The position numbers were made by a program, and so were the translations under genes. Below the pieces are notes generated by a model. It was not told the origin of the DNA. It worked only from the letters and a program-made list of their open reading frames with translations, and ran no database searches. A stretch of 32,907 nt of DNA from Syntrophomonadaceae bacterium (GTDB taxonomy: Bacteria > Bacillota > Syntrophomonadia > Syntrophomonadales > DTU052): positions 92,392-125,298 of the forward strand of contig JAAYEQ010000026.1 of NCBI GenBank assembly GCA_012728655.1. The letters are read 5' to 3'. Positions 15,877-26,286 of the stretch are shown piece by piece. The stretch's first letter is position 1; each line of letters starts with the position of its first letter.

Positions 15877-16981
15877 GAAAAGCCTGCTGACTGTTTTGTG
15901 CCTCCCATTATTGTTAACTGCTGCGGGCTGTTTTGACTACCGCGATATCGAGGACCGTACTGTTCCCATCGTTGCAGCCTACGACCTGCCCGCGGAACCG
16001 GGCGGCACCGAAAACGGAGACATAGTCGTATCCGGAGTAGTGTTAAATCCTACAATCGGTATGAAAACAACGAGGATTGACAGTATGGTCGTAAAAACCA
16101 CCGCCGATGCGAGAAATGTAAATGCCCATTTCAGTCCGGGGGCTATGATCCTGGGACAGATCCAGGTTATTCTCCACAGTGAAGATTTGGCCCGTAAAGG
16201 GTTGCAAATAGATGATGGGCTCTTAAGGGTTGCACAGGTTAAACGGACCATGTATATGGCGATTGTTTAAGGGCGAGCTGAAGATTTGCTGAAAACAGAA
16301 GTCACGGTTGCTCCTGACATCGGTTTTTATTTGCTGGGATTGCTTAATGGCGCGCAGCGCAGAACCTTTCTCCCGGCCATTACCATGCATAATTTCCAGG
16401 TCAATGCAACTACCACGGGGAAGAATCCGATTATTCCCATCATCAAAGCCGAGGAAGGGCGTATTCGCATAGTGGGCACGGGGATTTTTGACAAAGAAAA
16501 ACTTATCGCCAAAGTGGGTATCAGAGACACCCGTTCACTGGTTATGCTGAGAGGCCTGAAGTGTAACGGGTTTATCCCTTTTGTCATTGAAAAAGATGGT
16601 GAACCGGTTGACAAAGGCACGGTCGCGGTAAGCAATACACGAAAGGTGCGGGTGGAAGAGAACGACGGCAGGATTACGTTTCTGATAACTATATTTCTCA
16701 AAGGCAACCTGTTGGAGCACTCGAGTCCGGAACCCGTAGATGAAACCCGTCTGCAAGAAATAGAAGACACGGTTTCCCATACCATTGCGTCCGACTGTAA
16801 CCGTCTGATCCGAAAGATGCAGGAAGATATCGGCGTAGACTTTATCGACATCAGCAAATATGCCAGGGCGAAATGGGGGAATGACATCCGGGAACAGATA
16901 AAAGATAATGATTTTATTAGGAACGTAAGGATCGTGGTCAGGGTCAAAACCAGTATTACGCACCTGGGACAGACGAGGTGA
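15869..16981 (+). pseudogene. Spore germination receptor C subunit (GerC lipoprotein) interrupted by an in-frame TAA
   Basis: Outer-surface lipoprotein subunit of the Ger receptor. The signal peptide ends in the lipobox LLTAAGC (lipidation Cys21), followed by FDYRDIEDRTVPIVAAYD. Reading straight through, the frame would give a normal 370-aa GerC with the C-terminal half GRAEDLLKTEVTVAPDIGFYLLGLL through the conserved DFIDISKYARAKWG region. A TAA at 16268-16270 splits it after residue 133 without changing frame. One base change (AAA or AAG lysine to TAA) explains the break. TTG at 16286 could allow weak re-initiation, but neither half would be a complete GerC. Loss of function is the simplest reading; a sequencing error is the alternative. 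Confidence 0.85.
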
Positions 16982-17274
16982 TACAGATTAAAGCAGGAAA
17001 ACGAAAGAAGTTAATCACAGCATTAACGATGATAAGCATCATAATCACTGTTGTCGGTCTGACGTTCGATTTTGTCATTCCCCGATATCTCGCGTATCGG
17101 TTCAGTCTTGATGCAACTGCGGGCGGCTCAATAGGGATCATCGGCGGTGCAGACGGGCCCACCAGCATTTTTATTGCCGGCAAAACGCCATCGGCCTCTA
17201 TTGCCCTGGTATTTGCGCTGCTGTCGGCAGCAGGAATCATATACCTGGCATTAAGCAGGAACACGCAGAAGTAG
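16978..17274 (+). CDS. Small two-helix membrane protein with OadB-like GGADGPT motif
   Basis: A 98-aa protein with transmembrane segments at about 12-33 and 73-92. Between them is GSIGIIGGADGPTSIFIAG (50-68), which resembles the conserved GGADGPT loop of the beta subunit of sodium-translocating oxaloacetate/methylmalonyl-CoA decarboxylases. It is far too short to be that pump, whose beta subunits exceed 350 aa. The GTG start overlaps the gerC stop (GTGA at 16978-16981), so translation is coupled to the germination operon. Function is unknown; a small regulator or ion-linked accessory protein is speculation. Confidence 0.65.
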   Translation: MIQIKAGKRKKLITALTMISIIITVVGLTFDFVIPRYLAYRFSLDATAGGSIGIIGGADGPTSIFIAGKTPSASIALVFALLSAAGIIYLALSRNTQK

Positions 17275-23153: not shown

Positions 23154-24788
23154 TTAACTCTTGATTTGCATCTCAACCACGCTGCCGCCGGCGTATTTTT
23201 CCCGCAGTTTGGGTTTTTCTATTTTACCGGTCGGATTGCGCGGCACCTTGTCAAATATGATTTTCCGCGGCCGTTTGTAACGCGGCAGAGTGGAGCAGAA
23301 GGTCCTTATGTCGTCTTCGCTGCAGTCATGCCCCGGTTTCAGCTCGATAATGGCGGCTGCAATCTCGCCCAGACGCGGATCGGGCACTCCAATAACAGCC
23401 GCATCTTTGATTGCATCATGCCCGCGAAGGAAATCTTCGATCTGAACCGGGTAAATGTTTTCTCCGCCGCTGATGATTACGTCCTTTTTGCGATCGACCA
23501 GGAAAATGAATCCGTCTTCGTCCATACACGCCATATCCCCGGTATAAAGCCACCCATTCTTTAGTGTGGCTGCTGTCGCTTCCGGGTCATTGTAGTAACA
23601 CTCCATTAAACCGGGACCGCGTACAATCAGCTCTCCAACCTGTCCTTGCGGCACCGGATTACCGGCTTCGTCAACGATTTTGGCTTCCCAGCGGTAGCCC
23701 GGTTTCCCAATGGCTCCCACTTTATGAATGTTCTCAATCCCCAGATGAACGCAGCCCGGGCCGGTGGATTCGCTCAAACCGTAGTTCGTATCATAGAGAT
23801 GGTTCGGGAAGTACTTTTTCCAGCGGTGAATCAGGCTGGGCGGAACAGGCTGGGCGCCGATATGCATCAAGCGCCATTGGTCAAGCCGGTAGTCATCCAG
23901 CTTCACCTCCCCGCTTTCGATGGCGTCCAGAATGTCCTGGGCCCAGGGGACCAGCAGCCATACGATGGTGATCTTTTCATCGGAAACCGCTTCCAGAATC
24001 CATTGCGGTTTTACGCCCCGCAGCAGAACCGCCTTGCTTCCTGCCAGCAGACTGCCGAACCAGTGCATCTTGGCTCCGGTATGATACAGCGGCGGTATGC
24101 ACAGGAAGTTATCCTCCCGGGTCTGGCCGTGATGCTTTTGTTCCGTTTCACAGGCCGACACCAGGCTGCGGTGGCTGTGCAGAATCGCTTTGGGAAAACC
24201 GGTAGTCCCGGAGGAAAAATAGATGGCCGCGCGATCATCATCCGTTAATTTGATGGACGGAGCTTCCGTCGAGCATTCTGCTGTCAGACGCTCATAGCTT
24301 TCGGCAAAGGAGGGGCAGTCCTCGCCGACAAAGAAACGCAGTTTCACCCTGGGAATCTGATCCAGAATCGTTTCCAACCGGTCAATGAATTCAGGGCCGA
24401 AGACCAGGGCATCGGCTTCCGATAAGTTCAGACAGTATCTGATCTCTTCGGCGGTATAGCGGAAGTTTAACGGAACCGCCAGGGCACCGGTTTTAAGGAC
24501 CCCGAAATAAATCGGCAGCCATTCCAGGCAGTTTAACAAGAGACTCGCTACCTTGTCGCCCTTTTTAATCCCTCTTTGGAGCAGCAGGTTGGCAAATTGA
24601 TTGGCTTTGTTGTCAAACTCCCGCCAGGTTATCTGGCGGCGAAACAGTCCCGGTGGATTGGGTTCGATCAACTCGAATTCGCGCCAGGTAACTTCCCGTC
24701 GTCCCTGCAGTTCCGGATTTCTTTCAATGAGGCTGATTTCATCGCCGTATAGACGGGCATTGCGAGCTAGAAATTCGGTAATAGGCAT
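23154..24788 (-). CDS. Acyl-CoA synthetase (AMP-forming ligase) with an N-terminal 20-residue tandem duplication
   Basis: Activates a carboxylic acid to its CoA thioester via an acyl-adenylate. The 544-aa protein has the P-loop-like YFSSGTTGFPKA, YGLSEST, YTGDMACMDEDGF, DRKKDVIISGGENIYP and the C-terminal catalytic lysine in PTGKIEKPKLREKY. Residues 20-39 and 40-59 are tandem repeats, each beginning LIE.NP and ending RR..TWREF, with 11 of 20 identical. Relatives normally have one TWREF-type segment before the KANQFANLL helix. The substrate is not determinable; short- or medium-chain fatty or aromatic acids are plausible. It follows the MFS transporter by 33 bp in one operon. AAAGGTAGGA precedes the ATG. 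Confidence 0.92.
   Translation of the reverse strand: MPITEFLARNARLYGDEISLIERNPELQGRREVTWREFELIEPNPPGLFRRQITWREFDNKANQFANLLLQRGIKKGDKVASLLLNCLEWLPIYFGVLKTGALAVPLNFRYTAEEIRYCLNLSEADALVFGPEFIDRLETILDQIPRVKLRFFVGEDCPSFAESYERLTAECSTEAPSIKLTDDDRAAIYFSSGTTGFPKAILHSHRSLVSACETEQKHHGQTREDNFLCIPPLYHTGAKMHWFGSLLAGSKAVLLRGVKPQWILEAVSDEKITIVWLLVPWAQDILDAIESGEVKLDDYRLDQWRLMHIGAQPVPPSLIHRWKKYFPNHLYDTNYGLSESTGPGCVHLGIENIHKVGAIGKPGYRWEAKIVDEAGNPVPQGQVGELIVRGPGLMECYYNDPEATAATLKNGWLYTGDMACMDEDGFIFLVDRKKDVIISGGENIYPVQIEDFLRGHDAIKDAAVIGVPDPRLGEIAAAIIELKPGHDCSEDDIRTFCSTLPRYKRPRKIIFDKVPRNPTGKIEKPKLREKYAGGSVVEMQIKS
24612..24731 (-). repeat. Diverged 60-bp in-frame tandem duplication inside the acyl-CoA synthetase gene
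   Basis: Unit 1 is 24672-24731 and unit 2 is 24612-24671. Both encode 20 residues of the form LIE-x-NP...RR-x-x-TWREF. Nucleotide divergence is considerable, mostly synonymous in the shared codons, so the duplication is old and has been kept in frame. Confidence 0.7.
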
Positions 24789-24821: not shown

Positions 24822-26027
24822 CTAAGCCATCGCTTCCCTTGCGGGTTTATTAAGGAATTTGGCCATAACTGCCGCTGCCGCCAATATGATGGCCGCAGCC
24901 AGGTACGCATAGCTGTAGGACCCGGTAATATCGACGATTTTTCCCGCCATCAGCGGTCCGATGACACCTGCTGCTCCAAAAGCCGTAAATACCAGGCCGT
25001 AATTTGTACCGCTGTTCTTCAAGCCGAAATAATCATAGGTCAAGGCCGGGAAAATCCCCAGCAGTGCTCCGTAAGCAATTCCGGTTATGCAAACTCCTAT
25101 GGTTAAGGAGGTCATATCGGCATAGTTTTTAAACAACAGCATGTTGGCGGCCTGAAGCAGAAACATCAGAATCAATGTCCGGTTGCGCCCGATGCGGTCG
25201 GACAGGAATCCGCCGACAACGCGGCCGGCGGAGTTGAACACCGCCAGGATGGCGACCAACGCAAATCCCCATGTGAGCTTAGCCTGGATACTGGCGATTA
25301 TGGCTATATGTCCTATTACCATCAGGCCGGCAATTGCCCCAAAACAGTACATAGACCAGATTAGCCAGAATTGTATGGTGCCCATCATTGCTCCGGGCGA
25401 AAAGTCATTTGCGGCCGCTTCCGTGCTGACAGCCGGTTCCGGGGTTCCGGGCGGTACATACCCGGCCGGAGGTACGGTCAGGAACTGTGCCAGTAAGACT
25501 ACCAGGCCACCGAACACGATGCCAACGATCAAGAAGGTCTGCTTGACTCCTACCGCATTGATGATGGCCTGAGCGAGAGGGGCCGCATACGCCGCGGCCA
25601 AACCCAGACCGGCAACCACTAAGCCGGATACCAAACCGCGTTTGGCCGGTGGGAACCACTTGACGGCAGAGGGAATGGTAACCCCGTAGGCTATGCCCGA
25701 TCCGGCTCCTACCATAACTCCAAAGAAAAACACAAATCCCGGTATTGTGGTCTGGATGGATGTCAGCGCCATGCCGGCGATCAACAGTATCCCGCCGGCC
25801 GTGGCCACGACCCGAGGTCCATATTTGTCAAACAATTTGCCGCCCGGCACCATCATTACCGCCAACATTGCCAAAGCCACCGTGTAAGGAAGCATGGCCT
25901 GGGTTTTGGTGAATCCCAGTTCCTGGATAAGGGCGGCTGCATATACGCTCCAGGCGTATATGAATCCACTGGCAAGGTTGAGGAGGACTGCTGCAATCGT
26001 AACCCGCCAACCGATGTTTTTTACCAC
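24822..26027 (-). CDS. MFS transporter, OFA (oxalate/formate antiporter-like) family
   Basis: A 401-aa major facilitator protein with about 12 transmembrane helices. The OFA-type helix 1 reads NLASGFIYAWSVYAAAL. The MFS loop 2-3 signature appears as PGGKLFDKYGPR, with a second-half equivalent GGFLSDRIGRNRT. A proline- and alanine-rich central loop (PPAGYVPPGTPEPAVSTEAA) separates the halves. I place the start at GTG 26027, 8 nt after AGAGG; the GTG three codons earlier overlaps the ribosome site. It precedes the acyl-CoA synthetase in an operon, suggesting import of the acid that the ligase activates. A long structured leader lies upstream. The substrate is unknown; the family is broader than oxalate and formate. 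Confidence 0.9.
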   Translation of the reverse strand: MVKNIGWRVTIAAVLLNLASGFIYAWSVYAAALIQELGFTKTQAMLPYTVALAMLAVMMVPGGKLFDKYGPRVVATAGGILLIAGMALTSIQTTIPGFVFFFGVMVGAGSGIAYGVTIPSAVKWFPPAKRGLVSGLVVAGLGLAAAYAAPLAQAIINAVGVKQTFLIVGIVFGGLVVLLAQFLTVPPAGYVPPGTPEPAVSTEAAANDFSPGAMMGTIQFWLIWSMYCFGAIAGLMVIGHIAIIASIQAKLTWGFALVAILAVFNSAGRVVGGFLSDRIGRNRTLILMFLLQAANMLLFKNYADMTSLTIGVCITGIAYGALLGIFPALTYDYFGLKNSGTNYGLVFTAFGAAGVIGPLMAGKIVDITGSYSYAYLAAAIILAAAAVMAKFLNKPAREAMA

Positions 26028-26118
26028 GAACAACACCTCTTTGCATGGTTTTGTTCAATACTTTTACGCGGCAGTATCAAGCGAGTTTACCTGAAACCCT
26101 TTTGATAATTTGCCAAAT

Positions 26119-26249
26119 AAAAAAACTCCCGCAGGAGCTCGTGAGTTTAGACACAGAAGGAATCGCCTGTGCCTAACTATGTGCCTGCCATGCTAACCTT
26201 CCTACCCTTTTGTATAAAAGTTTTTCTACCGTCAGCCCCAAACCTGCCA
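26119..26249 (-). ncRNA. Structured 5' leader with intrinsic terminator upstream of the MFS/ligase operon (riboswitch or attenuator candidate)
   Basis: Reading the minus strand, a 10-bp stem TTAGGCACAG / CTGTGTCTAA (26176-26167 and 26156-26147, one G-U pair) has a 10-nt loop, followed by a terminator hairpin CTCC-TGCG-GGAG with seven T residues (26137-26119). The terminator lies about 90 nt before the GTG start, with no minus-strand gene upstream that it could serve. The 5' part contains ATGGCAGG twice (26250-26243 and 26191-26184). GCAGG can pair with CCTGC in the terminator, giving a possible antiterminator. The loop bases CCTTC can pair with GAAGG at 26201-26197, a possible pseudoknot. I cannot match it to a known riboswitch class by eye. 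Confidence 0.6.
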
Positions 26250-26255
26250 TGAACT

Positions 26256-26286
26256 ATAATAACAAAATTTTTGCATGCTGTGCAAA
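26256..26286 (-). promoter_or_regulatory. Promoter with overlapping dyad for the MFS/ligase operon
   Basis: On the minus strand, TTGCAC (26285-26280), an 18-bp spacer, then TATTAT (26261-26256). An inverted repeat TTTGCA-TGCTG-TGCAAA (26270-26286) covers the -35 and looks like a repressor operator. Transcription would begin near 26249 and run through the terminator-bearing leader. Confidence 0.5.

Follow-up and report, generated by a model that had tools for sequence, protein, structure and literature searches.

The window, by which we mean the whole 32,907-nt stretch of DNA analyzed, carries on its minus strand an operon whose first gene encodes an OFA/monocarboxylate MFS transporter (24822..26027; NCBIfam SfMCT, 413 bits) and whose second gene encodes an AMP-binding acyl-CoA ligase (23154..24788). 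Judged against homologous leaders, the transporter likely starts at the GTG at 26027; the longest frame begins at 26036. Elsewhere in the window, an isolated small open frame of 98 aa (16978-17274, plus strand) contains IGIIGGADGPTSIF, which we take to recall the beta-subunit signature of Na+-translocating decarboxylases.

The element ahead of the operon spans 26286-26119 on the minus strand. It opens with a promoter-like -35/-10 pair (26254..26286; TGCACA-17-TATTAT, a 9/12 match to sigma-70, with a TG preceding the -10), which is overlapped by a TTTGC/GCAAA dyad at 26270-26286. The leader downstream of this pair is 130 nt long and contains two clusters of NAG triplets separated by 21 nt. Cluster 1 (26221..26250) is degenerate and retains only two triplets (CAG at 26244-26246 and UAG at 26226-26228), whereas cluster 2 (26182..26206) is complete with three (UAG at 26202-26204, UAG at 26193-26195, and CAG at 26185-26187). 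The core block in cluster 2, GGUAGGAAGGUUAGCAUGGCAGGCA, is identical to the family consensus and overlaps a strand that could base-pair with the arm of the terminator. Two copies of ATGGCAGG are present, one within cluster 1 (26243-26250) and the other at 26184-26191. A hairpin, P2 (26144..26178), identified by predicted fold and covariation, lies between the core block and an intrinsic terminator, CUCC-UGCG-GGAG followed by 7 U (26119..26140). The 5' arm and loop of this terminator, CCUGC, are complementary to GGCAGG, and the terminator is located 83-92 nt ahead of the transporter gene start. An earlier note on this DNA had described the promoter with its overlapping dyad, the stem-loop, the two ATGGCAGG copies matching the terminator arm, and the terminator with seven Ts, and all of these were recovered in our analysis. 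The note had also pointed to a potential CCTTC/GAAGG pairing involving the hairpin loop, a functional role of which the lack of conservation of this loop in the closest homologs argues against.

The window leader folded modestly better than its dinucleotide shuffles (z -1.9). Because the single-sequence fold is only slightly better than the shuffles, the case for the leader rests on comparison. The analysis was computational throughout: the conserved leader, the covarying hairpin, the NAG consensus, the regulon content and the HutP linkage were computed, and taxonomy outside the order was taken from kinship labels. BLASTN searches with the leader revealed that the window genome holds one more copy, ahead of a TRAP-transporter DctP gene, and that OFA or DctP genes are preceded by homologs in many Syntrophomonadales genomes (the order being assigned by names). 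These leaders share an unpaired block, GGUAGGAWGGUUAGNAYGGYAGGNA, a P2 hairpin of freely changing sequence, and a conserved terminator, CUCCURCGGGAG-U7; the core block was kept in 46 leaders. Compensatory changes on both sides were found in 8/8 basal pairs of P2, and the covariation score was 0.381, compared with 0.203 +/- 0.014 for shuffled and at most 0.195 for slid alignments. A covariance model built from the leader family found the family again, and it also picked up TRAP-transporter leaders absent from its training set, which belong to further families of the phylum (L215, L217, L220, L224, L227, and L237; 33-64 bits). The mild fold score would also be expected of a constitutive terminator behind a fortuitously NAG-rich, unregulated leader; such a reading is hardly credible, as it is contradicted by the conservation, by the covariation, and by the coherence of the regulon described below. 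A two-quartet G-quadruplex formed from the GG runs was considered and rejected because these runs are broken in variants. Strict-scan matches beyond Syntrophomonadales (Neolewinella, Bacteroidales, and Allomuricauda) were set aside as chance, with no terminator-bearing leader at those places.

Several variants of the arrangement were observed. In five genomes (G034, G037, G019, G013, and G007; loci L016, L022, L024, L025, and L026), two complete leaders, each with block, hairpin, and terminator, stand in series before one TRAP-transporter operon and would form a double attenuator. The TRAP-transporter leaders of L133, L134, and L135 (genus g13) are accompanied by an extra NAG block (GTAGGAAGGTAGGCAGG) that lies inside the SBP gene, in its first codons; a second HutP gene, a paralog, is found 8-13 kb away on the contig and strand that carry the leader. 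In an S. wolfei-type genome (G005; L144:3660-9342), an operon for a TrpX-type tryptophan ABC transporter lies downstream of the attenuated TRAP-transporter operon, and L138 (G006:C1:1816447) presents a NAG-rich leader with a terminator (CAGGTAGGTAGGACGGTAGG) and then another GGTAGGTAGGATGGGG block.

Rfam returned no match in the window and none at the leader in 13 homologous loci, which agrees with the earlier view that the class may be undescribed. The best sub-threshold alignment of the leader was to the PyrR-type pyr attenuators (RF00515), with which it shares a hairpin-hairpin-terminator architecture; this alignment is weak, its 22.2 bits being well under the gathering score of 54, and the PyrR loop sequence is absent here. 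The leaders resemble T-box leaders in preceding amino acid operons and in combining a terminator with a putative antiterminator, but they gave no T-box match and have no tRNA specifier structure. A T-box leader that falls slightly short of the gathering score, with 83.7 bits against 93, was noted at L046:6997-7203 on the minus strand, and the MAG concerned also carries a TRAP-transporter leader of the window leader family.

The weak matches of the covariance model revealed a second leader class, in which UGUAGGAUGGU...GUAGUAUGGUAGGAUGGUGGGAA and a terminator stand directly ahead of DAHP synthase genes. A generic pattern, GTAGKAYGGTAGKAYGGTRG, was then run against 249 genomes from the phylum, allowing at most 2 mismatches, and 60 pattern sites were fetched by a gene-blind choice. 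The results revealed that 56/60 of these sites precede one of 13 gene families: DAHP synthase (16), SSS symporter (13), TRAP-transporter DctP (6), TrpX (6), LctP-type permease (4), PaaK phenylacetate-CoA ligase (3), IorA (2), and, once each, AroH, TyrA, AroA, AroK, HisC, and an acyl-CoA ligase. The last of these (L219) is 67% identical to the ligase of the window and has a NAG site and a terminator to itself; in G004, a NAG site also marks the start of a further acyl-CoA ligase (L146). A relaxed scan of the window genome with 3 mismatches returned only the DAHP synthase site, the controls giving 2 and 4, so that the scan does not resolve weaker sites in this genome. The regulon is coherent, comprising aromatic amino acid synthesis, tryptophan uptake, aryl-acid uptake, CoA activation, and, as the chemistry of IorA would imply, the reductive carboxylation of aryl acids. 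The chemistry of indolepyruvate:ferredoxin oxidoreductase is established and is the basis for assigning this last step. IorA was present in 6/6 nearby genomes tested, its tie to the window being by pathway only. The operon of the window fits aryl-acid uptake followed by CoA activation.

Across 59 sites, the core consensus was NAG-N-A-Y-G-G with a period of 8 and a free first triplet letter; the triplets are spaced by 5-6 nt, and the AYGG within the spacers is conserved. In 18 of the 59 sites, a second NAG cluster is present 19-56 nt (mostly 19-36) upstream of the core. Within 60 nt, 17 were counted compared with approximately 0.1 in shuffled flanks, and sites in terminator leaders often have such a second cluster. 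The sites of the transporters (SSS and LctP), IorA, and AroH often lie 0-7 nt ahead of the start codon with no intervening terminator, and at these ribosome-binding sites the core motif is a free-standing 20-mer, with neither hairpin nor leader. At one SSS symporter start (L154:1501-1523; G011:C51:25485), 3-4 more NAG repeats lie upstream (GTAGCAGGACGGTAGGGGTAGAGCAGG), a possible translational operator.

The earlier note had read the element as a possible riboswitch or attenuator sensing a ligand, perhaps the transported acid or its CoA derivative. It was probably right that the leader attenuates transcription of the OFA/acyl-CoA ligase operon, whereas the riboswitch part is probably wrong. 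A leader that itself binds a small ligand (the transported acid, an acyl-CoA, or an aromatic amino acid) would account for the riboswitch-like combination of a conserved block, a covarying hairpin, and a terminator serving as expression platform, as well as for the existence of complete leaders in tandem. We nevertheless regard this as very improbable: the core block is almost without pairing partners and stands alone at ribosome-binding sites, the sequence of P2 varies freely, no Rfam class was matched, and the presence of the motif depends on HutP. The proposed ligand is probably wrong as well. A trans-acting protein and an aromatic-supply signal are indicated instead, because the core is a single-stranded NAG block unable to pair with itself, and because this block occurs at ribosome-binding sites lacking leader structure, marks an aromatic regulon, and tracks the HutP gene.

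Known HutP binds two NAG clusters of three triplets each, approximately 20 nt apart, beside an intrinsic terminator in the leader (PMC7430163). The window genome encodes a HutP-family (PF09021) protein (G000:C77:81206-81586; 171 bits), and HutP-family genes were found in 35/35 good genomes of the order. As HutP is universal in the order, the linkage test was moved to the phylum, where the gene is present in 166/249 genomes and absent from 83; this set addresses the objection that the linkage is a mere by-product of universality. The motif was found in 104/166 HutP-positive and 9/83 HutP-negative genomes (p 7e-16, phylogeny being only partly corrected). By a majority rule at the family level, the corresponding counts were 41/66 and 4/39 (p 1.4e-7). 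The positions of the sites agree with this linkage: all 45 of the 45 sites at most 12 kb from HutP share its strand, with 39 located downstream of it and 6 immediately upstream. The gene that follows HutP is aroH in nearly all of the loci examined, and DAHP synthase often comes next. Among the 9 HutP-negative genomes with a pattern match, G281 was checked; its site precedes the regulon gene TrpX. Because its family is otherwise HutP-positive, its lack of HutP is probably an assembly gap.

NAG repeats could instead be read by the tryptophan sensor TRAP/MtrB. MtrB is encoded by the window genome (G000:C47:62901) and by 45/63 of those in the order, and TRAP/MtrB reads (G/U)AG repeats and controls aromatic genes both by attenuation and at ribosome-binding sites (PMC7430163). 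The B. subtilis trp system thus resembles the present one in its NAG-triplet repeats, in its combination of attenuation with translational sites, and in its aromatic genes, a tryptophan transporter included. However, TRAP/MtrB sites have 11 triplets with 2-3 nt spacers (PMC7430163), whereas the sites described here have 3 plus 2-3 triplets, 5-6 nt spacers, and a conserved AYGG. The TRAP/MtrB gene is also not needed: the motif occurs before the same genes in 29/60 HutP-positive genomes lacking TRAP/MtrB, but in only 4/21 genomes with TRAP/MtrB and no HutP, one of them a likely missed HutP. In a stratified test, the HutP odds ratio for the motif was approximately 10 in the TRAP/MtrB-positive and -negative strata alike, and the value added by TRAP/MtrB within HutP-positive genomes was 2.6. 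With this reader disfavored by stratified co-occurrence, we consider it an improbable one.

HutP is known as the Bacillus histidine antiterminator of a single operon, and in the B. subtilis HutP complex the triplets are separated by 4-nt spacers. The present system resembles it in having a PF09021 protein and two NAG clusters approximately 20 nt apart near a leader terminator, the upstream cluster of the window keeping only two of the three triplets. It differs from it in its spacers, which are 5-6 nt with a conserved AYGG, in its genes, which are aromatic rather than histidine genes, and in its reach, with many operons rather than one and with sites also at ribosome-binding sites. A PDB sequence search with clostridial HutP matched no HutP structure, that of B. 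subtilis HutP included, because the clostridial proteins are so distant from the B. subtilis protein. The positions of B. subtilis H73 and H77, the histidine/Mg ligand residues, are both Gly in 28/28 clostridial HutPs. This substitution makes histidine an unlikely signal for the clostridial proteins, and the genomic company of the gene suggests an aromatic amino acid.

On the basis of these findings, we consider it likely that the window leader is an attenuator belonging to a phylum-wide aromatic regulon, in which binding of a HutP-like protein causes termination and turns the operon off under aromatic plenty; the binding, the ligand, the direction, and the substrate are what we infer here. 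A HutP-family hexamer, encoded beside aroH, would bind the two NAG clusters in the nascent leader at high levels of the aromatic signal, which is most likely Phe, Tyr, Trp, or a closely related compound. The bound protein would bar the GGCAGG strand from the 5' arm of the terminator, such that the terminator forms and the transporter/ligase operon is off. At low levels of the signal, the block would be free, GGCAGG would pair with CCUGC around P2, and transcription would read through. The expressed operon would then import and CoA-activate an aryl acid, which indolepyruvate ferredoxin oxidoreductase may salvage reductively.

The pairing that this mechanism requires was evaluated in the leaders. 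In the class to which the window leader belongs, the core sequence GGYAGG complements CCURC in the arm and loop of the terminator, and the duplex energy in these TRAP-transporter/OFA leaders was -8.6 compared with -5.7 +/- 0.4 kcal/mol for shuffled arms. Standard pairs occupied 94.7% of the antiterminator cells, compared with at most 64% when the alignment was slid; these cells alternate among U-A, U-G, and C-G, with almost no C-A and few compensatory changes. The conserved terminator loop, URCG, doubles as a UNCG tetraloop; this lessens the weight of the antiterminator covariation (6/500 shuffles), and the tetraloop alone could explain part of the URCG conservation. Folding of the window sequence gave -38.5 for the terminator state and a less stable -32.3 for the antiterminator when it was imposed, and the upstream copy of ATGGCAGG rivals the core for pairing with the terminator arm; a protein on the block would therefore favor termination. 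In the aro-type leaders, the complementarity between block and terminator was no better than shuffled, and their switch may therefore differ. A single antiterminator logic for all leaders is thus unsupported in the aro-type leaders.

Of all the steps, we are least certain about the direction of control. The reader could be HutP-like and yet act as an antiterminator, that is, an activator, as in the B. subtilis hut operon. Known HutP blocks terminator formation (PMC7430163), and the terminators of the aro-type leaders, which lack antiterminator complementarity, would form by default. However, a protein bound 0-7 nt ahead of the start codons of transporters, IorA, and AroH would obstruct ribosomes, and activation of DAHP synthase by a plentiful product would be metabolically senseless unless the apo-protein binds. 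We therefore judge activation unlikely. The location of sites on ribosome-binding sites and start codons indicates that the bound state is the off state; the control is thus probably repression, opposite in direction to that of B. subtilis HutP.

The control of operons through NAG clusters by an RNA-binding protein is already known; the novelty lies in the regulon and its scale, in the probable signal, and in the translational sites. A search of freely accessible literature, which does not prove priority, found no paper that connects HutP with Syntrophomonas, with chorismate mutase, or with aromatic amino acids. Taken at the level of the protein family, it is rather probable that HutP-family proteins are phylum-wide sensors of aromatic amino acids that use NAG-cluster attenuators and operators at ribosome-binding sites to repress biosynthesis, aryl-acid salvage, and uptake, and that the histidine-sensing HutP of Bacillus is one specialized branch of an older family. 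A protein encoded by two thirds of the sampled genomes of the phylum would thereby be predicted to act globally on the supply of aromatic amino acids, and the NAGNAYGG repeats would constitute a readable RNA code from which its targets can be predicted genome by genome. Probable substrates, namely aryl or aryl-keto acids, can be assigned to OFA, TRAP, SSS, and LctP transporters and to acyl-CoA ligases that are annotated as lactate, dicarboxylate, proline, or fatty-acid systems, and these assignments point to aryl-acid salvage in syntrophic anaerobes.
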